Shown in pieces: positions 1-39,567 of a stretch of 48,019 nt of DNA (its first letter is position 1; the number at the start of each line of letters is the position of its first letter). Made by a program: the position numbers and the translations under genes. Below the pieces are notes generated by a model that saw nothing but the letters and a program-made list of their open reading frames with translations, did not search any database and was not told the origin of the DNA. The stretch is from a virus. The DNA lies in IMG/VR virus record IMGVR_UViG_3300049255_000568, positions 1 through 48,019 of that record. One strand, given 5' to 3'.

Positions 1-414
1 CTACTCCTCCGGCGTGATCCCCTTGGCCCGGAGGGCGTCGTCGACTGCCTTCCGAACGGCGTCACGCGTTTCGGGATCGAGCCGCTCGATGGCGTAGTAG
101 AGGTCGCGGGTTCCGGGCGAGACCGGGAGACGCGCGAGATGGCGCAGGCGCTCGGGCAGGAGGCCGGCGGCGATCATCCCCTCCTCCCGGATTTGGGCGA
201 TTTCGCTTTCGCCGGCGTTGTCGGGCGCGAGGCCCTTGGCGAGCAGGCGGATGGCCTCGCGGGACGCCCCCCGCTCGGCCCCTTCCAGGCTCGAGACCAT
301 AGACTGCGAGAGCCCCGAGCGGATCGAGAGCGCCTTCTGGGTCAGAGCCCGCGCCTCGCGGGAGCGGGTGAGCCATTGGGCGAAGGTTGTGTCATCGCGT
401 TTTTTTCTGGGCAT
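1..414 (-). CDS. XRE-family helix-turn-helix regulator
   Basis: The 137-residue protein opens with a Cro/C1-type helix-turn-helix (about residues 11-60): LTRSREARALTQKALS, then SGLSQSMVSSLEGAERG as the recognition segment. The rest is helical and charged with no peptidase or dimerisation domain that I recognise. The ATG is preceded by an AAGG-type ribosome site. It is divergent from the replication genes, as expected for a phage repressor or Cro-like switch, and it is at the window edge. Role as prophage repressor is inference; the fold assignment is firm. A 196-bp palindromic element separates it from the rightward promoter. Confidence 0.8.
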   Translation of the reverse strand: MPRKKRDDTTFAQWLTRSREARALTQKALSIRSGLSQSMVSSLEGAERGASREAIRLLAKGLAPDNAGESEIAQIREEGMIAAGLLPERLRHLARLPVSPGTRDLYYAIERLDPETRDAVRKAVDDALRAKGITPEE

Positions 415-745: not shown

Positions 746-792
746 AAGGTAGACATCGAACATATGTTTGATTATACCACAAAAGGTAGACA
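746..792 (+). promoter_or_regulatory. Operator-like leader: palindrome and 10-bp direct repeat
   Basis: AAGGTAGACA occurs at 746-755 and again at 783-792. Between them AACATATGTT (759-768) is a perfect palindrome. The same core, extended to AAACATATGTTT, recurs at 12137-12148 beside another promoter. The location just downstream of the transcription start suits a repressor site; the XRE protein at 1-414 is the obvious but unproven ligand. Confidence 0.45.
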
Positions 793-794
793 CT

Positions 795-1508
795 ATGTGG
801 GTGAAGCTGGACGACGAAGTTTTTGAGCATCCCAAGATGATCGCGATCGGAATCCAGGGACGGGCGCTGTGGCTCGCCGGACTCTGCTACGCCAACAAGC
901 AGACCACCGACGGCTTTATCCCCGAATACATGCTGCGCGAACTGGCGAGTAAGGCCGGCGTCACCGATCTGAAGGGGACGGTGGCGAAGCTGACCACGAC
1001 CTACAAGGGGAACCGGAGTCCTGTCTGGCACCCGTCAGAGGACGGCTACCAGATCCACGACTACGCCGAGTACCAGTTCACGGCGGATAGGATCGCGGAC
1101 ATGAACGCCAAGCGGCATGAGGCGGCGAAGGTCGCGGCCAATGCGCGTTGGCATGCGCCGGCGGATGCGGATAAGAAGCGTGACCGGATGCGTCAACGCA
1201 TGCGCCAAGGCATAGTTGATGGCATGCCAGAGGGCATGCGTGATGGGATGCGTTCAGAATGCCCCGTTCCCGAATCCCGTACCCCTAAAAAGAATCTCCC
1301 CCGTAACGCCGGAGGCGTTACGGCCCCCCAGGGGGCGTTGCCTGCGGCGCATGGTGATTTAGAAGAGAGAGCGGACCCGTTTGAGGCCCTCACCCCCGAC
1401 CCCTCTCCCGATGGGAGAGGGGTGTTGAAGGATTACGTGGTCGATGACGACTGGTATGAGGAGCACCTAACCCCCAGAACCAGACCGCCGGTTGAAACCG
1501 ACGGCTAA
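795..1508 (+). CDS. Phage replication-initiation-like protein (N-terminal domain MWVKLDDEVFEHPK)
   Basis: The N-terminal ~115 residues (MWVKLDDEVFEHPKM, LWLAGLCYANKQTTDGFIP) resemble the winged-helix-like N-terminal region of phage replication proteins encoded beside DnaB helicases. I chose ATG 795, which follows AAGGT at proper spacing, over an upstream TTG at 768. The C-terminal third is low-complexity (repeats of RM/GM) and includes peptides made by palindromic repeats: LTPDPSPDGRG and a final RPPVETDG. The C-terminus therefore probably arose from repeat insertion. It lies upstream of dnaB and may act as its loader or initiator; function is inferred from position and N-terminal similarity. 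Confidence 0.6.
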   Translation: MWVKLDDEVFEHPKMIAIGIQGRALWLAGLCYANKQTTDGFIPEYMLRELASKAGVTDLKGTVAKLTTTYKGNRSPVWHPSEDGYQIHDYAEYQFTADRIADMNAKRHEAAKVAANARWHAPADADKKRDRMRQRMRQGIVDGMPEGMRDGMRSECPVPESRTPKKNLPRNAGGVTAPQGALPAAHGDLEERADPFEALTPDPSPDGRGVLKDYVVDDDWYEEHLTPRTRPPVETDG

Positions 1509-1734
1509 AAGTGCACGATGTCCCTCCGGGACAAACCTAACCCCCCGTCCCCCTTCCCTACTCACTCCGTTTAGGGAAGGGGGAGCCAACCATAGAGGCT
1601 CATTCCAAGATTACGGCGGGTTTCTATGATACCAAGGCATAGTTGCCATTCTGAGAAAAGGCGAATAGCTCCTGAAATGAGCTTTGTATAGTTGGCTCCC
1701 CCTTCCCGGGCCGGGAAGGGGGACGGGGGTTAGG
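1483..1734. repeat. Palindromic elements, class D then class B
   Basis: Class D (GACCGCCGGTTGAAACCGAC, then GATGTCCCTCCGGGACA) overlaps the end of the preceding gene. Class B (1536-1734) has long terminal inverted repeats, CCTAACCCCCCGTCCCCC against GGGGGACGGGGGTTAGG, and an inner pair around GGGGGAGCCAAC / GTTGGCTCCCCC. The right end stops two bases before the dnaB GTG and gives it the only Shine-Dalgarno-like purine run. Confidence 0.75.
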
Positions 1735-1736
1735 CA

Positions 1737-3125
1737 GTGACCGAAGACACGACAAGCGATGTGAAGAGCGAGCAGACACTGCTCGGGATGCTCTTTTTGG
1801 AGCCAACCGCGATGGGCGAAGCGTTGTCGCTTGGCCTGCTGCCCGAGCACTTCGACCGGATGGCGCACGCGGACATCTTCGGCCTGCTGCGCGCGCTCTA
1901 CGAGGAGGGGAAGCCGGCGGATTTGCCGCTGGTGGCGCAGGAGGCCAGGCAGCGCGGCCTGCTGGAATCGATCGGCGGCGCGGGGTATCTCGCGGGGCTG
2001 TTGGATTCGGTGCCCTCCGCCGCCGGCCTGCCGGGTTATGTCCGCCATCTACAAGCCCTGGCCAGGACTCGGGCGGCGCGGGATGCGGCCAGGCGCACAG
2101 CCGAGTTCGCCGAGCGGGCCCAGGACGCCGAAGGGATTCTCGCCTACGCGCAAAACGAGTTCGGGGGTGTGGGCGCGGGGGATTGTCGCAGCGAGGTCAA
2201 GCCGATCGGGTCGATTCTCCGGGACCTGTGCGACGACGCCGAAGAGATGGCCCTCTCCGGGCAGCGTTGGCTTGGGGTCCCGACCGGATTTGGCGCGCTC
2301 GACGCCAAGCTTGGCAACATGCAGCGGGGCGATCTGGTGACTCTAGCGGGCCGTCCGGGGACGGGCAAGACCAGTCTCGGGCTCTTGATCGCAATGAACG
2401 TGGCGCTCGGGCGCGGCCAGGGCGGGACCCCGCAGACGGCATTGGTCTTTTCGCTGGAGATGTCGCAAAGGCAGCTGGGTCTCAGAATCGCGTGCTCGGA
2501 GAGCGGGCTGAACAGCCAGCGGGTGCGTTGCGGCGATCTCGACGAGAACGAGTGGGGGCGGCTGCACAAGACACTGGTGCAGCTCTACGAGATACCGCTG
2601 CTGATCAACGACAATGTCGGGCCGAACATCCTGGAGATCGCGGCGCGGGCTCGTCAGACAAAGGAGCGCGGAGGGCTCGGGCTGGTGGTGGTGGATTATC
2701 TGCAGCTGATCGACGCCGGCGCGGACGCGCAGAACCGGACCCAGGTGATCGACAAGGTCTCGCGGGAACTGAAGCGCATGGCGCTGGCGCTGGATGTGCC
2801 GATTCTCGCGCTCGCGCAGCTTTCGCGGGCGGTGGAGCATCGGGAGAGTAAGCGTCCGGTGCTGAGCGACCTGCGCGAATCGGGCTCGGTGGAGGCGAAC
2901 AGCGACGTCGTGCTGCTCCTTTACCGGGAGGGTTATTATGGGAGGAAGCCCCCACCCCCCAACCCCCTCCCCCGTTTCACAGGAGAGGGGGAGAAAGAGG
3001 ACACGGAGGCGCAGGAGGTGGAGGTGATTGTCGCCAAGCACCGCAACGGGCCGACGGGGACGGTGATGCTGGGGTTTATTCCGGCGTTCACGCGGTTTGT
3101 GTCTCTGGCGAGGAGGAAGGTTTAG
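1737..3125 (+). CDS. dnaB: Replicative DNA helicase, DnaB type
   Basis: ATP-driven 5'-3' fork helicase. The 462 residues show the DnaB N-terminal helical domain (about 10-110) and the RecA-like domain: Walker A GRPGTGKTS (205-213), Walker B VVVDYLQL (317-324), QLSRAVEHRESKRP (361-374), LRESGSVEANSD (379-390), and the KHRNGPTG loop (434-441) that supplies the trans-acting arginine finger in this family. The start is GTG. Between VVLLLYREGYY and EVEVIVAKHRNG a palindromic element adds about 20 residues (GRKPPPPNPLPRFTGEGEKE) in frame; the site is a loop where DnaB proteins vary in length, so activity may survive. It probably replicates the phage genome together with the upstream gene. Confidence 0.93.
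   Translation: MTEDTTSDVKSEQTLLGMLFLEPTAMGEALSLGLLPEHFDRMAHADIFGLLRALYEEGKPADLPLVAQEARQRGLLESIGGAGYLAGLLDSVPSAAGLPGYVRHLQALARTRAARDAARRTAEFAERAQDAEGILAYAQNEFGGVGAGDCRSEVKPIGSILRDLCDDAEEMALSGQRWLGVPTGFGALDAKLGNMQRGDLVTLAGRPGTGKTSLGLLIAMNVALGRGQGGTPQTALVFSLEMSQRQLGLRIACSESGLNSQRVRCGDLDENEWGRLHKTLVQLYEIPLLINDNVGPNILEIAARARQTKERGGLGLVVVDYLQLIDAGADAQNRTQVIDKVSRELKRMALALDVPILALAQLSRAVEHRESKRPVLSDLRESGSVEANSDVVLLLYREGYYGRKPPPPNPLPRFTGEGEKEDTEAQEVEVIVAKHRNGPTGTVMLGFIPAFTRFVSLARRKV
2944..3001. repeat. Palindromic element inserted in frame within dnaB
   Basis: CCCCCACCCCCCAACCCCCT and the following CACAGGAGAGGGGGAG match the left half of the intergenic element at 19847-19957. The reading frame is kept and translates to PPPPNPLPRFTGEGE. 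Confidence 0.75.
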
Positions 3126-3136
3126 AAGGCCCCCAT

Positions 3137-3300
3137 GGATCCACCTGCCCCTGAAGGGGCGTCCTCCCTAAAGGGAGGACTCGGAAACCTAACCCCCCGG
3201 CCCCCTTCCCTCCAGGTAGGGGGAGGAAGAAGCTAGCAGTAGATCGTCATTCCGGTTCCTCCCTTTAGGGAGGATACGGCTTTACCCGGAGGTGGGTCTA
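3137..3300. repeat. Palindromic element, class G with a nested class B fragment
   Basis: Outer arms GATCCACCTGCCCCTGAAGG and GGAGGTGGGTCT flank CCTCCCTAAAGGGAGGA and its mate CCTCCCTTTAGGGAGGA. A CCTAACCCCCCGGCCCCC class B end lies in the middle. A second class G copy lies at 8407-8528. The right arm sits directly before the next gene. Confidence 0.65.
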
Positions 3301-3315
3301 GAAAGGAGAATTGGC

Positions 3316-3624
3316 ATGGTGAACGATGAAAATGTAATTAACCAGATTGAGACCGCCGGCGCGAAGAAGCGGGTCCGGCTGCGGCAGGAGAAGGACCTGA
3401 AGCCCGACGAACGCGCGCGGCTGGCGGCGGCGAGGCGGCAGGTGGGGAAGTACCGTTCGCATTACGAGTGCGTGGTGGATTATTTAAAATACTGCGATCT
3501 TCTGGTGGAGCTGAGAATGAAGCCGCCCGGGTATCTGCCGCCGATCCATAAGGTGCAAAAGGAGACGGGAATCCCCTGCTGGCGGACCACTCAGCGGTGC
3601 ATAGAAAAGGCGCGGGGGAAGTAG
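3316..3624 (+). CDS. Small charged phage protein, unknown function
   Basis: 102 residues from ATG 3316, chosen because AAAGGAGA lies 7 nt upstream; a longer frame from 3292 starts inside the repeat. The protein is basic (KKRVRLRQEKDLKPDERARL near the N-terminus) and has CVVDYLKYCDLLVELR and a C-terminal CWRTTQRCIEKARGK. No family recognised. It lies in the early region after dnaB on the same strand, so a role in DNA metabolism or packaging is possible, but nothing in the sequence proves it. Confidence 0.6.
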   Translation: MVNDENVINQIETAGAKKRVRLRQEKDLKPDERARLAAARRQVGKYRSHYECVVDYLKYCDLLVELRMKPPGYLPPIHKVQKETGIPCWRTTQRCIEKARGK

Positions 3625-4257: not shown

Positions 4258-4476
4258 CTACTCCAGGAAGTTTTCGGGCTCGCCCGATCCTTCCCCGCCG
4301 GGGAGGAAGCGCTTTAAGGGCGCGAAGAACTCGCGGAGCGTCGGACGGAACTTCGGAACGAGGTAGGCCGGCGCGAGGATGACCGCGATCACGCAGGCGA
4401 GGAAGAGGCCGAAGGCGAGCATGACGTACTCGTAGGGCGGCCTCTTTGGCTTACTCTTGCCGGAATCTTTTTTCAT
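4258..4476 (-). CDS. Small single-pass membrane protein
   Basis: 72 residues: a Lys-rich head MKKDSGKSKPKRPP, then a strong transmembrane helix (YVMLAFGLFLACVIAVILAP) and a short soluble tail. It has no Shine-Dalgarno site. Instead a TATACT hexamer ends 6 nt before the ATG, which points to a leaderless message. It is the first gene of a two-gene minus-strand unit with 3751-4254. Unknown function; size and topology would also fit a membrane-active phage accessory protein. Confidence 0.55.
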   Translation of the reverse strand: MKKDSGKSKPKRPPYEYVMLAFGLFLACVIAVILAPAYLVPKFRPTLREFFAPLKRFLPGGEGSGEPENFLE

Positions 4477-4482
4477 GGGGAT

Positions 4483-4488
4483 AGTATA
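4483..4488 (-). promoter_or_regulatory. -10 element of a leaderless promoter
   Basis: On the minus strand TATACT is followed by 6 nt and then ATG (4476), so transcription should start at or within a base or two of the start codon. The same arrangement precedes the genes starting at 4808, 12896 and 39554. Confidence 0.5.
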
Positions 4489-4610
4489 GCACAGAGGCGC
4501 AGCCCCGCGTTAAACCGCAGGGCTACAATCGAGAACCCCGCTGAAGCGGGCTGCGGGAGGAGAGCCAACTATAGAGCGCTCATTTCCTGAGTACGTCGTT
4601 AGGATTGGGC

Positions 4611-4808
4611 TCAGAAAATGGGAAGCGGCGGGAGATAGGAGGCGGTGGCTCTCATCATCCGAAGAATGGCAGGGCGCCAAGGCGGAACGAGGTGGAAGAA
4701 CGGAACTGCGATCACGACGAGAGTCCAAATGATGAAGATGTAGACCGCCAGGATCGGCATGGCGTAGATTGGTATTTTGAGCCTTCGCGAGGCGGGACCG
4801 ATTTCCAT
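4611..4808 (-). CDS. Small predicted membrane protein
   Basis: 65 residues with one clear transmembrane helix (IYAMPILAVYIFIIWTLVVI, about residues 13-32) and a second weaker hydrophobic part. No ribosome site is visible; TATAAC lies 6 nt upstream of the ATG, as for the neighbouring leaderless gene. Its 3' end runs into a class B-like repeat fragment. No family recognised. The case rests on hydrophobicity and the promoter match. Confidence 0.42.
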   Translation of the reverse strand: MEIGPASRRLKIPIYAMPILAVYIFIIWTLVVIAVPFFHLVPPWRPAILRMMRATASYLPPLPIF

Positions 4809-4814
4809 GAGATT

Positions 4815-4820
4815 GTTATA
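4815..4820 (-). promoter_or_regulatory. -10 element of a leaderless promoter
   Basis: Minus-strand TGTGGTATAAC: a TATAAC hexamer 6 nt before the ATG at 4808. Confidence 0.42.
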
Positions 4821-4839: not shown

Positions 4840-4954
4840 GCCCGACTCCTAAAGGAGTGGGCTAGAAAGAGCGCGAAGCCTGCCTGCGCAGGCTCAGGAG
4901 GCCGCGACGGCGGCCTTTGTGTTCTTCACAGCCCACACGTTTACGTGCCGGGCT
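4840..4954. repeat. Palindromic element, class C
   Basis: Left arm GCCCGACTCCTAAAGGAGTG plus GGCT, right arm AGCCCACACGTTTACGTG plus CCGGGC. Between them are two further palindromes, GCCTGCCTGCGCAGGC and GGCCGCGACGGCGGCC. Other copies: 15000-15116, 18515-18632, 20713-20827, 24632-24746, and half of one at 39650-39691. The arm palindromes differ between copies (ACTCCTAAAGGAGT, ACACCTGAAGGTGT, ACACCTAAAGGTGT) but stay self-complementary, so structure is kept while sequence changes. Confidence 0.8.
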
Positions 4955-4999
4955 GAACGGGGCCGGGGGTGGGTCCAAAGATACACCTCGCAAAACGAC

Positions 5000-5028
5000 T
5001 TGACAGTCTCTCGAAGGGGCTGTATAAT
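5000..5028 (+). promoter_or_regulatory. Perfect-consensus sigma70 promoter
   Basis: TTGACA (5000-5005), 17-nt spacer, TATAAT (5023-5028). It faces a region with no credible protein gene, which makes a non-coding transcript the likely product. Confidence 0.8.
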
Positions 5029-5034
5029 GACCGT

Positions 5035-5180
5035 GGCGCAATTCGAGATTTTCACCTGGAATATATTGTCCAGGGAAGACGCCTAACAGCCGCCGGCGGC
5101 GCTGGTTTGCTATTTTCATACCTTGGCGGAGGGTTCGCCCTCCCTATTTCTTCTGTCCAGGGTTACCGGCGGCCTTTTTT
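5035..5180 (+). ncRNA. Candidate small RNA 1, from a consensus promoter to a hairpin with T-run
   Basis: Downstream of the promoter at 5000-5028 come a hairpin CCTGGA...TCCAGG (about 5056-5074), then GCCGCCGG (5089-5096) that can pair with CCGGCGGC (5165-5172), enclosing GGAGGGTTCGCCCTCC, a stem capped by a stable TTCG loop. The closing stem is followed directly by CTTTTTT, so it could act as an intrinsic terminator. TGTCCAGGG occurs twice (5067-5075, 5154-5162). No tRNA, tmRNA or known ncRNA signature was recognised. About 145 nt; ends are inferred. Confidence 0.4.
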
Positions 5181-5246
5181 GCGACTCTTTTTTCCCCTCT
5201 TTCTTCACAAACCTCTCCATTTGTCAATCGGCGTTGGCCAAGGGAC

Positions 5247-5275
5247 TTGACATCAACCGGCCTATGCAGTAAAAT
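5247..5275 (+). promoter_or_regulatory. Near-consensus sigma70 promoter
   Basis: TTGACA (5247-5252), 17-nt spacer, TAAAAT (5270-5275). It follows candidate small RNA 1 and faces a second hairpin-rich, gene-free stretch. Confidence 0.65.
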
Positions 5276-5281
5276 TAAGTC

Positions 5282-5465
5282 AACAGTTTCTTAGTATAAA
5301 CAAACAGCTGTTCGTGGGCGCAGCGCACCGTTTATTTTCACTCTCCCGACTCTCTCACCCGCGGAAAAGCCAGGCAATGCTCGCCCAAGTTGGGCGTTAG
5401 TGTGTCTGGCTTTTCCGATTCGCGGAGCTTAAAGCGCAGCTCTAAACTCCGTTCCCCCGCACAGC
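5282..5465 (+). ncRNA. Candidate small RNA 2, large hairpin
   Basis: The promoter at 5247-5275 leads into AACAG...CTGTT and GTTT...AAAC pairings, then a long stem: CCGCG + GAAAAGCCAG (5359-5373) pairs with CTGGCTTTTC (5406-5415) and CGCGG (5421-5425), with an inner hairpin CGCCCAA/TTGGGCG (5382-5396). A third stem CGGAG...CTCCG follows. No poly-T terminator is clear, so the 3' end is uncertain. There are no start codons with a ribosome site in the stretch. Identity unknown. Confidence 0.3.
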
Positions 5466-5557
5466 TCCGGCAACCCCTCCCTACCCCGGCCCCCGGCTAA
5501 AACCCGGGGGCTATTTCCTCGAACCCCGCCTACGGCGGGCTAGAGCGGATCATTTGC

Positions 5558-5770
5558 ATGAAGCAAGCGAAGAGAAACCAGCAGCGGTTGGACCGGAGGA
5601 GCCGGCGGATCACGGTAAGCCTGGCCTCGGCGAGGGTTGTGGCGCGCGCGACGGGCCATCGGATTATCGAGGGCAGCGAGGAGTATGTGCCGCTGACCGA
5701 CAGCTCGCTCACTTTCGAAGACTCCGGGACGTGGAACTACGCGCGCGATGTTGGATATGCGAGAAGGTGA
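5558..5770 (+). CDS. Small basic protein, unknown function
   Basis: 70 residues. The N-terminal half is strongly basic (MKQAKRNQQRLDRRSRR) and the C-terminal half is acidic to neutral with SLTFEDSGTWNYARDVGYARR. The ribosome site is weak (GAGCGG about 15 nt upstream). It is the first frame after the candidate RNA island and is convergent with the exported protein at 5774-6148, only 3 nt apart. A nucleic-acid-binding role would fit the charge pattern but is unsupported. Confidence 0.4.
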   Translation: MKQAKRNQQRLDRRSRRITVSLASARVVARATGHRIIEGSEEYVPLTDSSLTFEDSGTWNYARDVGYARR

Positions 5771-5773: not shown

Positions 5774-6148
5774 TTAGGAGCCATTGTATTTGGCGTTGAC
5801 TTCGTTGTATTTGTCGCGCGACGTATCGGTTAGCGTGTAGGGAAACGAGCCGGACTTGCTCTTGGTGACCACGACATGCTGACGAGGCTTCCACAGCGCG
5901 GTGATATAGCCCTGGTGGTCCTGGACGGTCCATTTGGAGCCGTCGGACAGCACGACCTGCTTGCCATCCCGGGTGACCGAGCGGATGTCGCACGCCTTGC
6001 CAACGCCGGGGTAGTTGGATTGCGCGGGATGGAGTGCGGGAAGGCTCGACTGAGCGGACAGAACGTCCGCGCAGGCGATCAATAGAATGAACAGGGCGAC
6101 GGCCATGCGCAGGGCAGCGCCGGCGTTTCTTCTTGCTTCTCTTCTCAT
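5774..6148 (-). CDS. Small exported protein, unknown function
   Basis: 124 residues from ATG 6148, which has a strong AAGGAGG 6 nt upstream; the longer frame runs into a repeat. A Sec signal peptide is clear: Arg-rich start MRREARRNAGAALR, hydrophobic core MAVALFILLIACADVL, and a cleavage-like SAQ. The mature part has KACDIRSVTRDGKQVVLSDG and KWTVQDHQGYITALWKPRQH, a beta-rich pattern. No family recognised. It is convergent with the phage genes and may be a moron or a host gene. Confidence 0.7.
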   Translation of the reverse strand: MRREARRNAGAALRMAVALFILLIACADVLSAQSSLPALHPAQSNYPGVGKACDIRSVTRDGKQVVLSDGSKWTVQDHQGYITALWKPRQHVVVTKSKSGSFPYTLTDTSRDKYNEVNAKYNGS

Positions 6149-6207
6149 CGTTTCCTCCTTGGAGATTGACTGCCTATTCGGTTCCGGGGCCGGAGAATCC
6201 TTGGACC

Positions 6208-6427
6208 TACCTGGCCGCCGGTTAAAACCGACGTAAAACAAGGCACGATGTCCCTCTGGGACACAGACCTAACCCCCGGCCCCCTTCCCTACTCACTGCG
6301 TTAAGGGAAGGGGGAGCCAACTACGTAGGCTCATTTCAGGAACATATCGCTGCAATCTGGAAATGCGCGCTGTATTGTTGGCTCCCCTTCCCATAGTGAA
6401 ACGGGTGGGGAAGGGGCGGGGGTTAGG
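6208..6427. repeat. Palindromic elements, class D then class B
   Basis: Class D (GGCCGCCGGTTAAAACCGAC, GATGTCCCTCTGGGACA) is followed by class B (6268-6427): CCTAACCCCCGGCCCCCTTC to GGGGCGGGGGTTAGG, with inner GGGGGAGCCAAC / GTTGGCTCCCC. The right end plus a few bases (TTAGGGGTAGG) gives the ribosome site of the terminase small-subunit gene. Confidence 0.75.
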
Positions 6428-6438
6428 GGTAGGTTCCC

Positions 6439-6999
6439 ATGCCCAAGTGGACCACGAAACATGAGCGGGCGGCGTTCTTGATCGCCGAGGGGATGCAGAC
6501 CCTGCGCGAGGTCGCCGGCGAGATCGGGACCGGCCTGAGCACGTTGGAGCACTGGAAGCAGGGACGAGTCCGCAAGGCGAACGATTTCCCCGAGTTCCCG
6601 GCGCGGGTGCGAGCGCTCAGAGAAGAGTTTCTGGCCGAGGTGCGCGCGCAGGGGATCGCGGTCACCGAGCACCGGATCAAGCGGGCCAACGACGACTGGC
6701 AGCGGCTGCAATTTATCCGCCGGCAGCGCGCCGAGCGGGCCGACATGCAGCATGTGCCGGGCGGCGCGACGGGCCTCTTAGTGCGTTCGGTGAAGACCAT
6801 CGGGCGCGGCGACTCGTCTCAACTGATCGAAGAGTACGAGATCGATCACGCCCTCCTTACCGAATTGCGCGCGCTGGAAACCCAGGTCGCCAAGGAATTG
6901 GGCGCGATTACCGACCCCGACGGGACCCGCGAGGTGATTGTTCGTTATGTCGATGGAACTCATCCTGCCGGGGCCGCACGCGGCGCAGAGGAAGATTAA
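6439..6999 (+). CDS. Terminase small subunit-like protein
   Basis: 186 residues. The N-terminus has a helix-turn-helix typical of small terminase DNA-recognition domains (HERAAFLIAEGMQTLREVAGEIGTGLSTLEHWKQ, in part), then a long helical segment rich in Arg and Glu suited to oligomerisation, and a C-terminal LLTELRALETQVAKELGAIT. It overlaps the large-subunit gene by about 50 nt, the usual arrangement for a packaging pair. The small subunit would recognise the packaging start on phage DNA and regulate the large subunit. The call rests on HTH plus position. Confidence 0.75.
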   Translation: MPKWTTKHERAAFLIAEGMQTLREVAGEIGTGLSTLEHWKQGRVRKANDFPEFPARVRALREEFLAEVRAQGIAVTEHRIKRANDDWQRLQFIRRQRAERADMQHVPGGATGLLVRSVKTIGRGDSSQLIEEYEIDHALLTELRALETQVAKELGAITDPDGTREVIVRYVDGTHPAGAARGAEED

Positions 7000-8266
7000 G
7001 CGCGAGGCGCGTCGGTTCAATGTGGTCTGCTGCGGCCGGCGCTTCGGCAAGAGCACATTGGGCGAGGATCTGGTGATCGAAACCGCGCTCGCCGGCTACC
7101 CGGCGGCGTGGTTTTCGGATAAGTTCGCGTCGCTGGACAACCCCTGGCGCGATTTGAAACGGATTTTAAGGCCAGTCATTGCCGAAAAGAACGAGACCTT
7201 GCGCCGGATCGATTTGATCACCGGCGGCTCGATCAAGATGTGGTCGCTCGACGACGACCCCGAGTGTTCCCGAGGTCCGAAGTACAAGCGGGTGGTGATC
7301 GACGAAGCCGCCAAATGCGCGAAGCTTTTGCATGCGTGGCGGGAGGCGATCCGCGCGAACCTGGCCGACTACGAAGGCGACGCCTGGTTTCTCAGCACGC
7401 CGCGCGGCCGCAACGATTTCTGGCAGATGTTCCAATACGGGCTGGATGAGACCCGGCCCGAGTGGGCGTGCTGGCAGATGGGGACGTCGGCCAATCCCTT
7501 TATCCCCATCGACGAAATCGACGCCATGCGCCAAGAGATGGGCGCGGTGGTGGCGTCGCAGGAGATCGACGCCCAATTCTTAGAAGTCGGCGGGCGCTTC
7601 TTCGACGAGTGGGATGAGGTGAGGCATACGTCGCTGCCTTTCGCCATCCCCCGCCACTGGCACTTCTTCGGCGGGATCGACTATGGGACCAGGGCGAGTT
7701 CTCCGACCTTCTGCTTCCTGCTGTGCGCGGCGGATGAGGCCGGCAATGTGTACGTGATCGACGAGCTTTATAAAGCCGGCGCGCTGCCGAGTGAGCAGGC
7801 CGACGCCGTGGCGAGTATGATCGCGCGCTACGAGCTCCCTTTGCAGCCGCTGCTGGCTTTCGACTGGGCGAATACGTTCCCGCCCGAAGACCCTGCGGAG
7901 CGGATCGGGGAGTATCCTGTCGAGGCATTTTGGGCCAAGGGGTTGCGCTGTGTGCGCGCGGTGAAGGACCGCGAGGCGGGGTGGACAAGGGTCAAGGAGT
8001 TTCTGCACAAGCCGGCGGCGTTGACGGTGTTTCGCGGACGCTGCCCGAACCTGATCCGCACGCTGCCGCTGATGGTCTACGACGAGCGACTGGGCCACTT
8101 AGAAGATTTGGATACCACGCTTGAGGACCATCCGGTCGATTGCCTGCGATACGCCTTGATGACCCGACCCCGGCCGGCGACCGCGCCCCAGCCGATGATT
8201 TTGGAGCTGCCGGCGGATCACCGTCCGGCGTGGATGCGGAGAAGCCGGGGGTTGGTGCGGTTGTAG
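6947..8266 (+). CDS. Terminase large subunit (packaging ATPase and nuclease)
   Basis: 439 residues from ATG 6947 (GAGGTG lies 10 nt upstream; TTG 6938 and ATG 6953 are alternatives). ATPase motifs: Walker A GRRFGKST (30-37), Walker B RVVIDEAA (115-122), coupling motif STPRGR (150-155). The RNase H-like nuclease starts with GGIDYG (242-247) and has later acidic positions LLAFDW and LEDHPVDCLRYAL. This protein cuts concatemeric DNA and drives it into the prohead through the portal encoded at 12975. All key residues appear intact. Confidence 0.93.
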   Translation: MSMELILPGPHAAQRKIKREARRFNVVCCGRRFGKSTLGEDLVIETALAGYPAAWFSDKFASLDNPWRDLKRILRPVIAEKNETLRRIDLITGGSIKMWSLDDDPECSRGPKYKRVVIDEAAKCAKLLHAWREAIRANLADYEGDAWFLSTPRGRNDFWQMFQYGLDETRPEWACWQMGTSANPFIPIDEIDAMRQEMGAVVASQEIDAQFLEVGGRFFDEWDEVRHTSLPFAIPRHWHFFGGIDYGTRASSPTFCFLLCAADEAGNVYVIDELYKAGALPSEQADAVASMIARYELPLQPLLAFDWANTFPPEDPAERIGEYPVEAFWAKGLRCVRAVKDREAGWTRVKEFLHKPAALTVFRGRCPNLIRTLPLMVYDERLGHLEDLDTTLEDHPVDCLRYALMTRPRPATAPQPMILELPADHRPAWMRRSRGLVRL

Positions 8267-8669: not shown

Positions 8670-8759
8670 ACGGCCTAACCCCCCGGCCCCCTTCCCTACT
8701 CACTGCGTTAAGGGAAGGGTGAGCCAACCATACGGCGCTCATTTCCGGAATATTCAGGA

Positions 8760-10506: not shown

Positions 10507-10995
10507 ATGAGCATGCAAGACTTTGCCAACGCAGTGGCTTTGATGGAGTCTGCCAAAGACTTGATGTATTTCGTCGGCCCGCGCGATCAGTCTCTCATTG
10601 AAGCGGCGGAGAAGGCAATCGGAAGCCGCTTCCCGCCGACCTACCGCGAATTTGTCGCGCGATACGGGGCGGGCAATTTCGGAGCATTCGAGATCGACGG
10701 CGTTATCGATGCTAATTTCTACAACAGTTCTGTTCCAAACGGGATATGGTTAACGCTAAAGCGGCGTCGGTCGGGAGACCTTCCTATCGATCTTCTCGCC
10801 GTTGGCGATGATGGCATGGGAGGCTACTACTGTATCGAACTTCTGGATGGTAAGGAAGGACATGTTATCGTTTGCGAGCCAGGCGCTGCCCCTCCTGATA
10901 AGTTGCCGCGGGAGTTCATTGCGAACGATTTCGGCGAGTTTCTGCTATCAGGAGTGCTCGCGCGTCTCGTAAGCGACGATTCCGCCGGCGAGTAA
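10507..10995 (+). CDS. SUKH (SMI1/KNR4) family immunity-like protein
   Basis: 162 residues. The SUKH hallmark is clear: SLIEAAEKAIGSRFPPTYRE followed by FVARYGAGNFGAFEIDGV, then IDLLAVGDDGMGGYYCIEL with LPREFIANDFGEFL near the end. SUKH proteins are a superfamily widely used as immunity to polymorphic nuclease toxins. It sits 43 nt after the first immunity-like gene on the same strand. Its C-terminal coding sequence (GACGATTCCGCC...) resembles the spacer just upstream of its own ATG, suggesting a lost neighbouring copy. Which toxin it neutralises is unknown. Confidence 0.75.
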   Translation: MSMQDFANAVALMESAKDLMYFVGPRDQSLIEAAEKAIGSRFPPTYREFVARYGAGNFGAFEIDGVIDANFYNSSVPNGIWLTLKRRRSGDLPIDLLAVGDDGMGGYYCIELLDGKEGHVIVCEPGAAPPDKLPREFIANDFGEFLLSGVLARLVSDDSAGE

Positions 10996-12005: not shown

Positions 12006-12094
12006 GGAGCCGTTCGCAGGATGGGCCGCTTTTTGATTCGCACCCGCCGGCGCGAGTAGAGGCTGGGGCTTGCACCCCGATGGAGAATGATTTT

Positions 12095-12161
12095 GCAAAC
12101 ATTTGTATACATTTGCAAACATTTGTATACATTTGCAAACATATGTTTACAAATGTATAAT
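12095..12161. promoter_or_regulatory. Tandem 20-bp operator-like repeats with promoter
   Basis: The unit GCAAACATTTGTATACATTT occurs at 12095-12114 and 12115-12134; a third partial unit runs into the palindrome AAACATATGTTT (12137-12148). TTGCAA (12133-12138), 17 nt, TATAAT (12156-12161) forms a plus-strand promoter inside the array, and a second TATAAT lies at 12169-12174. The palindrome core is shared with the leader at 759-768. A repressor-controlled promoter is the simplest reading. Confidence 0.55.
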
Positions 12162-12260
12162 ACAGTGGTATAATAATCCTTGAAATTGGCCCGTCTACCG
12201 AACTGTCCCCGTATGGGTGCGTGCGTTCGGCGTTTTCCGATAGGTAGCGGGCATACTTTT

Positions 12261-12896
12261 TTACATGGGCCAGAAACGCACCGAGTGTTCTCGGTGCTTT
12301 ATTATTTGCCTATACTTCGCCGCATCTTTCTTCTTCGGGTAGTGAGCTCTCGCAACCGCTCCGCAGATCATATCCGCCATTTGCACGAGATTGTTTCCGT
12401 GTGAGTTCGCCGGCTTTATGTCTTTGATATGAAGAGAGCTTTCTCCCCTTTCGTTTATTTTCATCTTCAGATATCTGGCAAGTTCCTTCTGGAAAGGCCT
12501 GTTTCCGCTCTTATCGATTCTGACCTTTGCCTCGTTTAAGAAGGGCTTCGCATTTTCAAAGATCATTCCACACACGTAGTTATACAGCTTTTTCTTGTCT
12601 TTCGTTAGTGTCTCCGAATAGAGCAGAGGCTTGTTGACAACGAAGCCGAGATAGTTGAACGGAAAGCCAGCGACTGCATTTAGGAAGGCTGTCCGGTGCT
12701 CATCGCAAATCCCTGTAAAATGAAACTCATAGGACGCAGGTCGACCCAGCTCCACCCGCAGACGGTTAATGGCCTCGTCGACTTGCTGGGCGATCTCTTC
12801 CGAATCGAAAATCACCAAAGTCACCACAAAATATTCCTGCGATCCTTGGCCGAACTTAAAGCCCGTATCGCCTGATTCGTCAACGAAGACAAGCAC
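12261..12896 (-). CDS. DUF3800 domain protein
   Basis: 211 residues starting with the DUF3800 signature MLVFVDESGDTGFK, then a beta-strand run EYFVVTLVIFDS, YEFHFTGICDEHRTAFL, and late acidic motif NNLVQMADMICGAVARAHY. The family is thought to have an RNase H-like fold, with acidic residues at the start and in the QMADM...A helix, and is frequent in mobile elements; its biochemical role is not settled. The start is GTG 12896 (an in-frame TGA stands directly before it), with TAAAAT 6 nt upstream, so the message is likely leaderless. It is the only minus-strand gene between the toxin region and the portal. Confidence 0.8.
   Translation of the reverse strand: MLVFVDESGDTGFKFGQGSQEYFVVTLVIFDSEEIAQQVDEAINRLRVELGRPASYEFHFTGICDEHRTAFLNAVAGFPFNYLGFVVNKPLLYSETLTKDKKKLYNYVCGMIFENAKPFLNEAKVRIDKSGNRPFQKELARYLKMKINERGESSLHIKDIKPANSHGNNLVQMADMICGAVARAHYPKKKDAAKYRQIIKHREHSVRFWPM
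12278..12303 (+). terminator. Plus-strand terminator-like hairpin inside the 3' end of the DUF3800 gene
   Basis: GCACCGAG-TGTT-CTCGGTGC followed by TTTATTATTT. It would stop a plus-strand transcript started at 12156-12174, giving a short RNA of about 130 nt antisense to the DUF3800 stop region. Confidence 0.4.
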
Positions 12897-12902
12897 TCAC
12901 TC

Positions 12903-12908
12903 ATTTTA
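12903..12908 (-). promoter_or_regulatory. -10 element of a leaderless promoter
   Basis: Minus-strand TAAAAT, 6 nt before the GTG at 12896; same spacing as at 4483-4488 and 4815-4820. Confidence 0.45.
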
Positions 12909-12974: not shown

Positions 12975-14999
12975 ATGCTTAAAGATTTGAAAAACAAACT
13001 GAAGCGCGAGAAGAACCATATCCCGCCGTTTAAGAGCGCGCAGGAGGCGGGGATCGACCTCGATCCCACCGCGCCCGACGTCGAACGAGAACGCGAGCGC
13101 TATACGCCCGAGAACGAGCAGAGCGTGGTGAACGATGTTCTGAAGTTCTACAAAGATGCCCAGATGAGCCGGCTCTTCTTGGAAAGAGATTGGCTCATTT
13201 CGCAGGCTTTCCGAGTCGGCCACCAATGGGTGGAATGGAATGTCGGGACGGGGCAGCTCACCACGCTGTACGACCGCGACGACCCCCAGGAGCGATACAG
13301 GCATATCACGGTCAACCTGATCCGCGAGTGCATGCTGCTGGTCGGCGCGGCGGTGACACAGAGCCGTCCGGATGTGAACTTCTCCTCGCTGACTTCGCGC
13401 GATATCGACATGGCCGCGACGCAAGAGGCGCGGGCGATCAACGACCACTGCGACAGAGAGTTCTGCGACGACCTTCAGCTTCGCGCATTGGTCGATCTGG
13501 CGCTCACTTCGACCACCAGCTTCCTCTACCAATACTGGGACCCGAAGAAGGAAGAGGACGTGCCCGTTTTCGATGAGATGGGCAATATCAAGGGCCTGAA
13601 GAAGCTGCCAGTCGGCGGTATCCGGGAAGAGATCGTGCCGGCCTACTACCTCTACCCCGACCCGAAGGCCAAGACCTGGGAGCACTGCCCGCGTGTGTGC
13701 CACGTGAGTATCCGCGATATCAACGAAATGATCGACGAATACGGCGAGATCGCGAAGGGGCTCACGCCGGATACCTACAGCACGCCGGCGGGCTTTATCG
13801 AGAGCCGCCTCGACTGGATCAATAGAGATTTCGGCCAGAGCACGTTCAATACGATCAAGAACGCGGTGACGGTCTATTCCGTTTGGGACAAGCCGAACAA
13901 CCGATTCCCGAAGGGCCGGTATATTGTCGTCGCCAATAACAGAGTTTTGCGCTACGAGGACTGGCCGTACGAGGACAAGACGAAGTTCCCCTTCACGCCG
14001 CTCGGGTTTGAATATATCCCCCATTCGTTGTGGGCGCTGAACAATGTTCTGCACCTGATTCCCCTGCAGATGACCTATAACCGGGTCTACTCGCGGATCA
14101 TGGACCGGCTGCAGAACGACAAGCTGACATTGCTTATCCAGCGCGGAGCCGAAGTGGGTCCCGACGCCTACGAATCCGACCGGCAAAAGGAAGTGATCTA
14201 CTACAACCTGGGCGCGGCGCCGCCGACCTTCCAGCAGCCGCCACCGGTCAATCCCGAATGGTTCTCGATGCTGAACATCATTAAGGCCGACATGCAGGAG
14301 ATGAGCGGGGCAAGAGATGTCTCGCGCGGGATGGTCCCGAATGGTGTCGTGGCGGCGCAGGCGATCGAGATGCTGCAGGTCGCGAATGCGTCGCAACTGA
14401 GTCCGTTCCTTGGCAATATCGAGCGGTTTGTCGAGCAGCGCGCCGAGCGGCGAATCGCGCTTTACGCGCAATTCGCCCGTGGCGTCCCGAGACTGATGGG
14501 CCTTGCCGAAACCGACAACACGCAGCAGGCGCTGGCCAATGTTCAGGCCTTTCGCGCCTTGCGCGGCGGCGGCAAGACACGGGTGATTGTGACTCCCGGC
14601 TCGGCCCGGCCGAAGAGCCCCGAGGCCCAGAACGACCGGATTGTGGAGTGGTTCAAGGAGGGGATGTTCGGCCCGCCGATCGATCCCATGTCCGCTATGG
14701 CGGCCTGGAAGGCGATGGACCACGCGAAAAGCGACGAGGTCGTGGAAGAGCTTTTGCGGATGCGTTTGCAGCTGGTACAGGAGCAGGCCGCGAAGGCCCA
14801 ACAGCAGGCGCATGGCCAGATTCCGCCGGCGGCATTGGAAGCGCAGGCCAAGGCGCAGCAGCACCAGGCGCAGACCCAGCACGAGGCCGAATTGGAAGCG
14901 ATTCGCCACCACCACGAGATGGAGAAGCTCAAGGTGCAGCACGAGATGGATATGGCCAAGCTCGCCGCCGAGCATCTGCATGAGGAGAGGACTTCTTAA
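12975..14999 (+). CDS. Portal protein, P22 type
   Basis: 674 residues, typical for P22-like portals. Visible: an N-terminal charged region, WLISQAFRVGHQWVEWNVGT, RYRHITVNLIRECMLLVGAA, the wing/stem PAYYLYPDPKAKTWEHCPRV and WALNNVLHLIPLQMTYNRVY, RDVSRGMVPNGVVAAQAIEM (a conserved portal motif), and a C-terminal barrel-like coiled coil rich in Gln, His and Glu. It forms the dodecameric ring through which the terminase pumps DNA. The Shine-Dalgarno site is poor. A long antisense frame across the gene is a codon-bias shadow. Confidence 0.9.
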   Translation: MLKDLKNKLKREKNHIPPFKSAQEAGIDLDPTAPDVERERERYTPENEQSVVNDVLKFYKDAQMSRLFLERDWLISQAFRVGHQWVEWNVGTGQLTTLYDRDDPQERYRHITVNLIRECMLLVGAAVTQSRPDVNFSSLTSRDIDMAATQEARAINDHCDREFCDDLQLRALVDLALTSTTSFLYQYWDPKKEEDVPVFDEMGNIKGLKKLPVGGIREEIVPAYYLYPDPKAKTWEHCPRVCHVSIRDINEMIDEYGEIAKGLTPDTYSTPAGFIESRLDWINRDFGQSTFNTIKNAVTVYSVWDKPNNRFPKGRYIVVANNRVLRYEDWPYEDKTKFPFTPLGFEYIPHSLWALNNVLHLIPLQMTYNRVYSRIMDRLQNDKLTLLIQRGAEVGPDAYESDRQKEVIYYNLGAAPPTFQQPPPVNPEWFSMLNIIKADMQEMSGARDVSRGMVPNGVVAAQAIEMLQVANASQLSPFLGNIERFVEQRAERRIALYAQFARGVPRLMGLAETDNTQQALANVQAFRALRGGGKTRVIVTPGSARPKSPEAQNDRIVEWFKEGMFGPPIDPMSAMAAWKAMDHAKSDEVVEELLRMRLQLVQEQAAKAQQQAHGQIPPAALEAQAKAQQHQAQTQHEAELEAIRHHHEMEKLKVQHEMDMAKLAAEHLHEERTS

Positions 15000-15116
15000 G
15001 CCCGACTCCTAAAGGAGTGGGCTATAAAGTGCACAAAGCCTGCCTACGCAGGCTAAGGAGGCCGCGACGGCGGCCTTTGCGTTTTTTATAGCCCCACACG
15101 TTTACGTGTCGGGCAC
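15000..15116. repeat. Palindromic element, class C
   Basis: GCCCGACTCCTAAAGGAGTG to ACACGTTTACGTGTCGGGC with inner GCCTGCCTACGCAGGC and GGCCGCGACGGCGGCC. It begins at the portal stop codon. Confidence 0.8.
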
Positions 15117-16672: not shown

Positions 16673-17821
16673 ATGGCAATAGACCCCAATGCGCTGACAC
16701 TCTCCGAGTGGGCGCACCTATCCAACGATCCCCTTGTGCTCAAGATCACCGAATCACTGCACAAGACGCTGAACATCCTTCAGGATATCCCGCTTGTCAC
16801 CGATGAAACCCTGAACATGGTCGGAATGCGCTATGTCGATACGCTTCCCGGTGTGAACTGGGGGCAGATCAACAAGGCGCCGACCGTGGTGAAGGGCAAG
16901 CCCACTCCCTATGAGGAGCAAGCGTTCCTGATCCGCAACCAGTTCCAGGTCGATAAGCGCCTGGTGAACAACAAGAACAATATCCAATCGCCGGTGCAGA
17001 CCGAGATCGACATGTTCATGGAGGCGCTCACCTACGAGCTGAACTTCCGGTTCATCCTGAACGATCCGACAAACCAGAACGACCTCACCAACGGCCTCGC
17101 GCCGGGCACGACCAGCGGATCGACCACGGGCATGGCCCAGTTCGCCGGAAACGGCGACGCCTGGGTGGGCCTTGCGACCCGCATGAACAATCCGGCGCAG
17201 TACGGAATCCCCTCTGAGATGCTGATCAACGGAACCAGCATCGGCACCGGTCTCGACCTGACCGCGGCGACCTTGGGCTCTACCACCGCGGGTGTCCCGC
17301 AGGCGGCATCGAACCTCTTTATCGAGAGCGTCCAGCAGATGCTCGACACCATGAACGCCCCCGAGGGCGATGGGGTCGTTTTCTACTGCAACGACCTTCT
17401 GAAGCGGCGCTGGGAGCGGGCGGTCCGCACCTCGGGCGCGGGCGGCGGCTTCGACATCACACGGGATGCGTTCGACCGGCCCGTAGCGACCTACAAGAAC
17501 GCCAAGATCCGCGACGTGGGCCGTCTTGCTCCGCTCGCCGGCGCGAACCAGTCGCTGAGGGTGATCTCGCCCTTCGAGCTGCCGACGGGCGCGCCGAGCT
17601 TCTCCGGCCAGACCAACGCGAACTACACCAGCCTTTATGCGGTGCGCTACGGCGACGGCTACTTCAAGGGCTGGCAGACCAATCCCTTGAAGCCCGACAA
17701 CCTGGGAGTCGACCCCACCAACGGCGTCATGATCAACATTGTCGTCGATTGGGGCGCCGGCCTCTGGCAGCAGCACAACCGCTCGGTTTGCCGCTTGTTC
17801 GGCATTAAGATCAGCCCGTAG
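16673..17821 (+). CDS. Major capsid protein
   Basis: 382 residues, AGAGGTAA ribosome site. Features of HK97-fold coats of this type: N-terminal helix (ALTLSEWAHLSNDPLVLKIT), the spine-helix region TEIDMFMEALTYELNFRFIL, a P-domain segment VVFYCNDLLKRRWERAVRTS, and the A-domain end MINIVVDWGAGLWQQHNRSV. It lies after the scaffold-like gene and before adaptor genes. It should form the icosahedral shell. The assignment combines layout with overall similarity to bacteriophage coat families such as GP7-like; no single catalytic motif exists to confirm it. Confidence 0.85.
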   Translation: MAIDPNALTLSEWAHLSNDPLVLKITESLHKTLNILQDIPLVTDETLNMVGMRYVDTLPGVNWGQINKAPTVVKGKPTPYEEQAFLIRNQFQVDKRLVNNKNNIQSPVQTEIDMFMEALTYELNFRFILNDPTNQNDLTNGLAPGTTSGSTTGMAQFAGNGDAWVGLATRMNNPAQYGIPSEMLINGTSIGTGLDLTAATLGSTTAGVPQAASNLFIESVQQMLDTMNAPEGDGVVFYCNDLLKRRWERAVRTSGAGGGFDITRDAFDRPVATYKNAKIRDVGRLAPLAGANQSLRVISPFELPTGAPSFSGQTNANYTSLYAVRYGDGYFKGWQTNPLKPDNLGVDPTNGVMINIVVDWGAGLWQQHNRSVCRLFGIKISP

Positions 17822-20705: not shown

Positions 20706-20712
20706 GAAGTAA

Positions 20713-20827
20713 GCCCGACACCTGAAGGTGTGGGCTATAAAATGCACAAAGCCTGCCTGCGCAGGCTAGGTTGAGGCCGCGTCGGCGGCCTTCGCGCTCT
20801 CAATAGCCCGCGCGTTCACGCGCCGGG
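20713..20827. repeat. Palindromic element, class C
   Basis: GCCCGACACCTGAAGGTGTG plus GGCT, inner GCCTGCCTGCGCAGGC and GGCCGCGTCGGCGGCC, right arm AGCCCGCGCGTTCACGCGCC. Confidence 0.8.
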
Positions 20828-20838
20828 GAAGACCACCT

Positions 20839-24615: not shown

Positions 24616-24631
24616 ACCCTCACCCCAATAT

Positions 24632-24746
24632 GCCCAACACCTAAAGGTGTGGGCTTTACAAAACACGAAGGCCGCCTGCGCGGCCTCATCCGAGCCTGCG
24701 AAGGCAGGCTTTGCGCACTTAATAGCCCACACCTTTAGGTGTCGGG
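24632..24746. repeat. Palindromic element, class C
   Basis: GCCCAACACCTAAAGGTGTG plus GGCT; inner GGCCGCCTGCGCGGCC and GCCTGCGAAGGCAGGC; right arm AGCCCACACCTTTAGGTGTC plus GGG. Confidence 0.8.
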
Positions 24747-24768
24747 TTACTTCCTGCCGAGTAATCCC

Positions 24769-33172: not shown

Positions 33173-34177
33173 TTAGGTTGGCGTGGAATCTGCATCACTA
33201 CCGCGGCCCTGCAATCGTGAAAAACCTTTGCGAACACTAGTAACAAGTCGATGACCCCGGCTATTTAGAATATCGTGCAGATACTGTAGCTCTGCGGAAG
33301 CCAGATCGAGTTTATTTTGTACGTCAGCAAAATCGCGCTTTATTCTCCAAGCTGATCCTAATGCAGAGGTCACCGCGTGCAGGAGTTCGAATGTTCCTTC
33401 CGCCTCTTTAATTGCAGTACTCAGGGTGGCTTGATCGCCCACGACAATAGCACGATAAAGGTTCTTAGTGATTGTGAGAACGTCGCTGCTCTCCAGTAAA
33501 TCTTGCTCAGATGGATTGTGGTGTGTTAGGCCTTTGCTGACATAAGACCCGATCGACGCACGAACGCCGGGATCATCAATGCCGACGCCTGTTCCAACAT
33601 ATTTGTAGATGCGCTCCGCTTCTTCATACGGGTCGCGCATAACATCCTCGTAAAAGGCAACGATACGATCTGTCCCCTCAGTGTCCGCTAGAGCCCGAAG
33701 TGTATAAACATGCCACAGCACGGATACCTGAGGAAAGGTCATTAGATCGCGCTTCGCCATTGATGCGGCAACAGCCAGGGGATTACGAATACAGAGGACG
33801 TATTTAGGCTCTTCTATAAGGCTCTGCCAAAAAGGAAGCAAGACTGATATGCGCGGATCCTTAATTGCCCAGAGAGGCGACCCACCAAACGTTTGAGATA
33901 GAAACGCCTTAGCATGTTCAGAAACCGCACGCACATCGTCGCGTTCTACCCAACCAGGAGGCCTGAGTGGAGGATCGTAGGAGGATCCGCCCAATATTTC
34001 GAGCAACTTCTCATTGAACGCGATAACCGATTTGCTCTCCCAAAAGCCGCTTAGGTTGCCAGAATCAGCCGGCAAAAGATCGCTTTGGTCTCCTAGATCG
34101 GCGCCGGCTATATTGAGCAATCTCGTGATAAGCGAGGTGCCGCTACGATGCATGCCTACAACCATCATGGCATTCAT
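33173..34177 (-). CDS. Sulfotransferase family protein
   Basis: 334 residues. PAPS-dependent sulfotransferase signature: the 5'-phosphosulfate loop VVGMHRSGTSLITRLL (residues 6-21), SGFWESKSVIAFNEKLL, IKDPRISVLLPFW, and the 3'-phosphate motif LCIRNPLAVAASMAKRD. It would transfer sulfate from PAPS to a glycan or other hydroxyl acceptor. AGGAAG precedes the ATG. It is convergent with the fibre gene and divergent from a glycosyltransferase. Lower GC and codon use unlike the neighbouring structural genes suggest lateral acquisition with the two glycosyltransferases. Confidence 0.85.
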   Translation of the reverse strand: MNAMMVVGMHRSGTSLITRLLNIAGADLGDQSDLLPADSGNLSGFWESKSVIAFNEKLLEILGGSSYDPPLRPPGWVERDDVRAVSEHAKAFLSQTFGGSPLWAIKDPRISVLLPFWQSLIEEPKYVLCIRNPLAVAASMAKRDLMTFPQVSVLWHVYTLRALADTEGTDRIVAFYEDVMRDPYEEAERIYKYVGTGVGIDDPGVRASIGSYVSKGLTHHNPSEQDLLESSDVLTITKNLYRAIVVGDQATLSTAIKEAEGTFELLHAVTSALGSAWRIKRDFADVQNKLDLASAELQYLHDILNSRGHRLVTSVRKGFSRLQGRGSDADSTPT

Positions 34178-34245
34178 GATTGCGTTTCTTCCTTAGGGAC
34201 AATCCCCTAGAATCGGAGGCTGGTTTTGGCTATCCGGGAGGGTGC

Positions 34246-34251
34246 TATAAT
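34246..34251 (+). promoter_or_regulatory. Extended -10 promoter
   Basis: TGCTATAAT with the hexamer TATAAT 20 nt before the glycosyltransferase ATG at 34272. No good -35 is seen, and the TG dinucleotide would compensate. Confidence 0.45.
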
Positions 34252-34271
34252 AAACGATTAAGAGCTGGCTT

Positions 34272-35465
34272 ATGAAATTCGTATCGATCATTATACCTGC
34301 CTACAATGCCGAGCGTTATCTAGCCCAAACTGTATGCAGCGTAATCGATCAGTCCTTCACGAATTGGGAACTGATCATCGTAAACGACGGATCTGCCGAC
34401 TCGACGTTGCAGGTAGCGCGACATTTTTCGGAAAAGGATGGTCGTGTCCGAGTCATTACTCAGGAGAACCGCGGACTAGCGAAGGCTCGTAACCGTGGTT
34501 TTTCTGAGTCGAGTGACAAGAGCTCCCATTTCTTATTTCTAGATGCGGACGACGTACTCGAAGCGAACACACTGGAACGACTCCTCTCAGGATTTCAACT
34601 TCAAGAGAAGCCCGCCTTCGTATTTGGGCGGGTCGTTCTGATCGATAGCAACGATACAGAGATCGCGCCGGAGAATCTACCGAAAACCTTCCAGGGACGC
34701 TGGGATTTGAGGAACGGCAACCATGTTTCCGTTCCGCTCGATAATCCGATTACTTTTGACATGCTTATGGCGAGCAATCCCATATGGACCGCAGGCAGCG
34801 CGCTTATCTCACGTGCATCGATCGAGGCAGTCGGGTTATTCGATCCCCTGCCCAAAGGCGTGGAGGACTGGGACCTGTGGATCAGAATGTCGCTATACGG
34901 CCCGATCCGCTATCTCGACGAACGGGTGCTCAAGTATCGCTACCATCCCGACAGTATGTCGAGGAATGAGACTCTGATGGACGTTGGCCGTATGATCATG
35001 TACCGGTTGCGTCTAGGAGATGCGAAACTGACCGATCAGCAGCGGCTCAGGGCACTGGAATGCATTGACTTCGTGTATCAAAGCGATTACCCTATCCCCA
35101 TTGTGCTCAACGGGCAGAGGTTGCTTGAGGAAGTTATACGCCGCGCCCGAATCGCTTCGATAATCCCGAAAGCCGATCTCTCAGCTCGAGAGTGCGGACT
35201 AAGGGATATCTCGGTTCTTCGCGCGCTCGAATACAACGGCGAACTTACGGAAAAGCTGCTGGCATTCGAGGACGCAGGGGAATGCGTCGTGTTTACTTCC
35301 ATCGAGATGCAAAAGCTACGGAAAGGCCTGAAGCGTCTGATTAACGAGGAAGTCCATCTTCGTTCCAAGCAGGCGGCGAACCATATGGCGATAGGAAAAC
35401 CGAGTCTCGCTGTGAGGGATTGGTATCATGCGTTGCGAGGACGCGCGCGAGCCGCGCGTCTCTAA
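34272..35465 (+). CDS. Family 2 glycosyltransferase
   Basis: 397 residues with a GT-A fold domain: SIIIPAYNAERYLAQTVCSV (5-24), IIVNDGSADST (35-45), ENRGLAKARNRG (65-76), metal-binding DADD (91-94), and the acceptor-base region GVEDWDLWIRMSLYGPIRYL. The C-terminal ~170 residues are helical and not assigned. It would transfer a sugar from a nucleotide-sugar donor to a glycan or protein. No membrane helices, so cytoplasmic. Paired head-to-head with the sulfotransferase. Confidence 0.85.
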   Translation: MKFVSIIIPAYNAERYLAQTVCSVIDQSFTNWELIIVNDGSADSTLQVARHFSEKDGRVRVITQENRGLAKARNRGFSESSDKSSHFLFLDADDVLEANTLERLLSGFQLQEKPAFVFGRVVLIDSNDTEIAPENLPKTFQGRWDLRNGNHVSVPLDNPITFDMLMASNPIWTAGSALISRASIEAVGLFDPLPKGVEDWDLWIRMSLYGPIRYLDERVLKYRYHPDSMSRNETLMDVGRMIMYRLRLGDAKLTDQQRLRALECIDFVYQSDYPIPIVLNGQRLLEEVIRRARIASIIPKADLSARECGLRDISVLRALEYNGELTEKLLAFEDAGECVVFTSIEMQKLRKGLKRLINEEVHLRSKQAANHMAIGKPSLAVRDWYHALRGRARAARL

Positions 35466-35540
35466 ACCCCTTACGCAGCCTTCTCCGCCGGCGAAGGTCT
35501 AAGCCACATGGACCTAGCTGGGCCTTGAGGCCGCCCGCCT

Positions 35541-36814: not shown

Positions 36815-36838
36815 GCGCTCTGGAAAGAGCGCTTTTTT
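36815..36838 (+). terminator. Intrinsic terminator upstream of the transglycosylase effector
   Basis: GCGCTCT-GGAA-AGAGCGC followed by six Ts (36833-36838). The ATG of the next gene lies only 11 nt later, as also seen for the toxin-like gene at 8815 (terminator 34 nt upstream). The preceding 36537-36814 holds no gene that I can support. Confidence 0.75.
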
Positions 36839-36848
36839 GGTGAATACC

Positions 36849-39554: not shown

Positions 39555-39561
39555 AACATCG

Positions 39562-39567
39562 ATTATA
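39562..39567 (-). promoter_or_regulatory. -10 element of a leaderless promoter
   Basis: Minus-strand TTGGTATAAT, hexamer 7 nt before the ATG at 39554. Confidence 0.5.

Follow-up and report, generated by a model that had tools for sequence, protein, structure and literature searches.

Phage lambda makes a terminated late leader from its promoter pR', the lambda 6S RNA. The Q protein of lambdoid phages attaches to the late promoter and enables polymerase to pass the terminator (PMC6266700), and -10-like pause elements are present in the initial transcribed region of late promoters (PMC4604602). Prophages also make noncoding RNAs (ncRNAs) in lysogeny, nine candidates of which were described in the Salmonella prophage BTP1 (PMC7067206; for further comparison within the prophage ncRNA literature, see PMC12197685). 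Another group of phage ncRNAs, the RNA anti-CRISPRs (Racrs), mimic CRISPR repeats (PMC10651486).

Against this background we analyzed a gene-free island of about 490 bases (approximately positions 4974-5465) in a virus record of 48,019 bases, the whole of which is referred to as the window. The gene content of the window is that of a tailed phage of the temperate type. Gene annotation placed the island between the DnaB-like helicase and the terminase genes (Table 1), as an earlier note on this DNA had correctly stated. REP-like palindromic repeats flank the island on both sides and recur across the window, where several families of them crowd intergenic spaces (e.g., 4840-4955, 15000-15115, 20710-20830, and 24629-24749). 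The coding frames of the helicase and the RepO-like protein seemingly carry inserted peptides that resemble those derived from the REP-like repeats. The island itself has no second copy in the window and thus is not a REP copy. We read it, at slightly better than an even chance, as two tandem small-RNA transcription units, P1 driving RNA1 and P2 driving RNA2, both of them noncoding.

Table 1. Positions of the island features and of neighboring and reference features in the window.
Feature	Position	Strand	Remarks
HTH regulator	1-414	-	
RepO-like protein	768-1508		
DnaB-like helicase	1737-3125		
ORF, small protein after helicase	3292-3624		no family match
P1, predicted sigma70-type promoter	5000-5028	+	TTGACA-17-TATAAT; consensus match, 12/12
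RNA1, predicted ncRNA	5035-5180	+	146 nt; predicted start 7 nt after the -10 hexamer
RNA1 predicted intrinsic terminator	5166-5180	+	3' arm CCGGCGGC, C, T6; 5' arm at 5089-5096
P2, predicted sigma70-type promoter	5247-5275	+	TTGACA-17-TAAAAT; consensus match, 11/12
RNA2, predicted ncRNA	5282-5418	+	predicted start 7 nt after the -10 hexamer; 3' end uncertain
56-nt hairpin, structured domain of RNA2	5362-5417	+	-37.1 kcal/mol
ORF, 70 aa	5558-5770		downstream of P2, which points at it
Gene converging on island	5774-6148	-	AAGGAGG Shine-Dalgarno
Terminase genes	6439-8266		
DUF3800-IX RNA (RF02968)	12188-12257	+	Rfam, 40 bits vs. cut-off of 36.8
Portal	12975-14999		
Capsid	16673-17821		
Endolysin-like protein	36837-37856		

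The island is singled out by its promoters, its terminator and its missing coding signal, and not by its folding alone. Both strands of the window were scanned for sites with at least 11 of the 12 consensus promoter bases and a spacing of 16-18, and four sites were detected (710, 5000, 5247, and 12146), all on the plus strand, compared to a mean of 0.135 and a maximum of 2 in dinucleotide shuffles of the window. These counts bear out the claim in the earlier note that such perfect promoters are rare in the window, and its two promoters were recovered with first hexamers at 5000 and 5247, 247 bp apart on one strand and each with a 17-nt spacer. A same-strand pair within 300 bp did not occur in any of 200 window shuffles, nor did two promoters in any of 2000 shuffles of the island. 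The site at 710 is upstream of the replication operon and that at 12146 is upstream of an RNA matched by Rfam as DUF3800-IX; both precede recognizable units, and the island pair can usefully be checked against these two sites. P1 and P2 are far beyond chance, as is the RNA1 terminator, and each predicted unit has its own promoter, judged by consensus matches far above those of shuffled sequence.

RNA1 is the firmest part of the finding and is strongly supported: a promoter, a fold and a terminator of a rare type all line up. The first nucleotides of the predicted RNA pair (GGCG with CGCC) in a helix that opens the molecule, and a CCUGG/CCAGG hairpin and a TTCG-capped stem (5128-5143) are also formed. 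The closing 8-bp GC stem, GCCGCCGG/CCGGCGGC, leads into C and a run of six T (5175-5180). Apart from the opening helix, these structures had been read from the letters beforehand, together with a stem-loop in RNA2, then put at 60 nt and here spanning 56 nt, and all of them were present. None of 200 shuffles folded as well as RNA1 (z = -3.4). A strict search of both strands of the window for eight perfect stem pairs followed by at least five T returned two sites, one of which is the RNA1 terminator, compared to 0.14 in shuffles. A separate terminator scan did not return the RNA1 site because it was limited to loops of 3-8 nt. Located after P1, the terminator defines an RNA of 146 nt. A 17-codon GTG frame (5033-5086), which starts 2 nt before the predicted +1 and has no Shine-Dalgarno, was rejected as a chance frame.

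A strong promoter, a short leader and an intrinsic terminator right behind it, all upstream of late genes, are also what a late control region like lambda pR' would contain, and P1 with RNA1 has this arrangement between the replication and terminase genes, albeit with an opposite-strand gene (5774-6148) intervening before the terminase. Under such control, a strong constitutive promoter would produce a short terminated leader (RNA1, perhaps also RNA2), and a phage antiterminator would allow readthrough into the terminase and structural genes. The plus strand from 6101 to the terminase start (6101-6460) contained no other promoter-like site with at least 8 of the 12 consensus bases, which fits such control and also indicates that P1 and P2 are not just a sample of many. 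Late promoters of another type would escape a consensus scan. The ORF behind the helicase (3292-3624) could be the seat of a late regulator, but it had no PHROG, Pfam or meaningful NCBIfam match, its single-sequence structure model was of low confidence (pLDDT of 57), and no antiterminator was recognized. A second promoter past the terminator is also foreign to the lambda layout. We regard late-gene control of this kind as unlikely, but it is the main alternative.

No frame of the island looks coding. Frame-specific hexamer scores, with twelve confident genes as the training set, reached 0.11 for the best island frame vs. 0.32-0.66 for five genes outside the training set, which is consistent with the earlier observation that no frame has a ribosome site. 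Folding on its own is only moderately unusual for the island. Across this REP-rich phage, 4.9% of 150-nt windows have a z below -3, and many of these coincide with REP palindromes; folding alone is weaker evidence because strong folding, tied to the REP-like palindromes, is found phage-wide. Commonplace folding and the palindromes that bound the island would be consistent with degraded intergenic filler, that is, REP-bounded remains without a functional RNA, or with elements that work at the DNA level, such as a recombination or packaging site. However, chance would hardly produce a pair of consensus promoters together with a terminator in register, and the island, with no other copy in the window, is not itself a REP copy; we consider this explanation very unlikely.

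As the second of the two tandem units, RNA2 would begin at about 5282 with a weakly structured 5' part, followed by a C/U-rich linker and the 56-nt hairpin. The folding z was -4.2 for RNA2 (5282-5418) and -6.6 for the hairpin on the minus strand. Near the base of the hairpin, AAAA is paired with TTTT, so on either strand the structure could pass for a weak terminator. It is possibly a bidirectional terminator that also serves the convergent gene (5774-6148, minus strand), and the 3' end of RNA2 is uncertain for this reason. The earlier interpretation, strong promoters driving structured noncoding transcripts, is partly supported. It is the best reading and has strong support for RNA1, with its own strict terminator; the hairpin of RNA2 has only four T and forms no convincing U-tract terminator.

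A weak terminator would also suit a different role for RNA2, as the structured 5' leader of the 70-aa ORF (5558-5770) toward which P2 is oriented, with the hairpin as an attenuator or stabilizer and RNA1 as the sole small-RNA gene. The ORF is a possible product downstream of RNA2 and its frame scores a marginal 0.24 in the coding test, but in real genes several shadow frames that are not coding come close to this value (that of the SUKH gene, 0.20). There is no clear Shine-Dalgarno ahead of 5558, REP-like palindromes lie between RNA2 and the ORF, and the ORF has no family match. A leader function for RNA2 is, in our judgment, quite unlikely.

RNA1 and RNA2 were also compared as possible duplicates of each other, which was rejected with a local alignment score at the level of shuffles. 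The motif ATTTTCA is found at 5048, 5112, and 5334, three copies inside the two predicted RNAs that make up half of the plus-strand copies in the window; by a post hoc count, three copies occurred in one of 5000 island shuffles.

Searches of Rfam with the island gave nothing above noise (best score of 15.6 bits vs. a threshold of 100). No family reached the gathering threshold, in agreement with the impression in the earlier note that the RNAs resembled no recognizable family. The CRISPR repeat families in Rfam did not match the island either. The island had no match when phage and plasmid DNA was searched, and exact pieces of the RNA2 hairpin arms had no match in IMG/VR. TerL relatives were about 40% identical over the C-terminal half only and belong to longer, otherwise different terminases, which made them useless as covariation material; the loci of these distant relatives have nothing in common with the island. 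Single-sequence scans with the portal, helicase and capsid proteins, which depend on short stretches of exact peptide identity and overlook diverged relatives, found no relatives, nor did scans of genomes for a TerL profile or a REP pattern. Because the lineage has hardly been sampled, the missing matches do not argue for functional novelty. Predicted base pairing of the RNAs with 43 phage start regions was no better than that of shuffles and revealed no target.

Four copies of the short element GAGCCAAC-N7/8-GCTCATTTC are present in the window (1674-1698, 4562-4586, 6314-6337, and 8721-8745), with none expected. A search for kindred phages based on this repeat gave three IMG/VR matches, which look like chance.

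If the island holds two tandem units, the housekeeping RNA polymerase of the host would transcribe both. P1 would give rise to RNA1, ending at its own intrinsic terminator, and P2 to an RNA2 of about 130-140 nt, or slightly more, with its end at or close to the 56-nt hairpin, which may also stop the convergent gene from the opposite side. The near-consensus promoters suggest constitutive synthesis, which would include the lysogen, as for accessory (moron) loci, and the products may be abundant. The RNAs could act by base pairing with host or phage messages or by binding protein. A bolder proposal, that one or both RNAs are abundant and, through mimicry or titration, target some host machine, be it a defence complex, RNA polymerase or an RNA chaperone, and that they form a new structured RNA class from a barely sampled phage lineage, is a long shot. 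Most likely, the finding is of an ordinary kind, phage small RNAs in an unexplored phage. If transcribed, they would be two orphan small RNAs of a phage whose proteins are almost without close relatives. Lysogeny control, superinfection exclusion and anti-defence are known roles of accessory RNAs in phages, which makes an abundant pair worth testing. What the analysis provides is a well-supported prediction of transcription units; it establishes no new mechanism.

Several other features of the window were observed. Upstream of the DUF3800-IX RNA are the promoter at 12146 and an alternating 10-bp repeat array (12092-12151), and a DUF3800 gene (12261-12896, minus strand) converges on the RNA; the DUF3800 protein also matches PDC-M04A, a candidate anti-phage defence model. 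In several minus-strand genes, a -10-like hexamer (e.g., TATACT) is followed by the start codon after no more than about 5-8 nt, in the manner of leaderless messages (4476-4490, 4808-4820, 12896-12908, and 39554-39570). Other genes encode a SUKH-family protein of the immunity-protein type (10507-10995) and a protein of 787 aa that includes a PBECR3 nuclease-like domain (44178-46541). One sulfotransferase-like and two family-2 glycosyltransferase genes (33173-36536) are possible accessory genes for surface modification.

The island RNAs share features with several known systems. As with Racrs, the prediction is of short phage ncRNAs located just 3' of a strong promoter (PMC10651486), but Racrs mimic CRISPR repeats, and the island matched no CRISPR repeat family in Rfam. 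As in the lambda pR' leader, which also lies between replication and late genes, a strong sigma70 promoter is followed by a short predicted RNA that runs to an intrinsic terminator. The island differs from pR' in having two promoters rather than one, an opposite-strand gene before the terminase, and no recognized Q-like protein. The DUF3800-IX RNA (RF02968) of the same phage is likewise small and folded, with a good promoter ahead of it and a T-run behind, but the island differs from it in sequence and fold, does not match its model, and has no adjoining DUF3800 gene. RNA-seq measurements exist for the BTP1 ncRNAs, one of which has a known role in superinfection exclusion, whereas the island RNAs are predicted and, unlike those of BTP1, are not antisense to a gene. 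Nonetheless, the island RNAs resemble the BTP1 ncRNAs in being noncoding, in having their own promoters, and in residing inside a temperate phage (PMC7067206).
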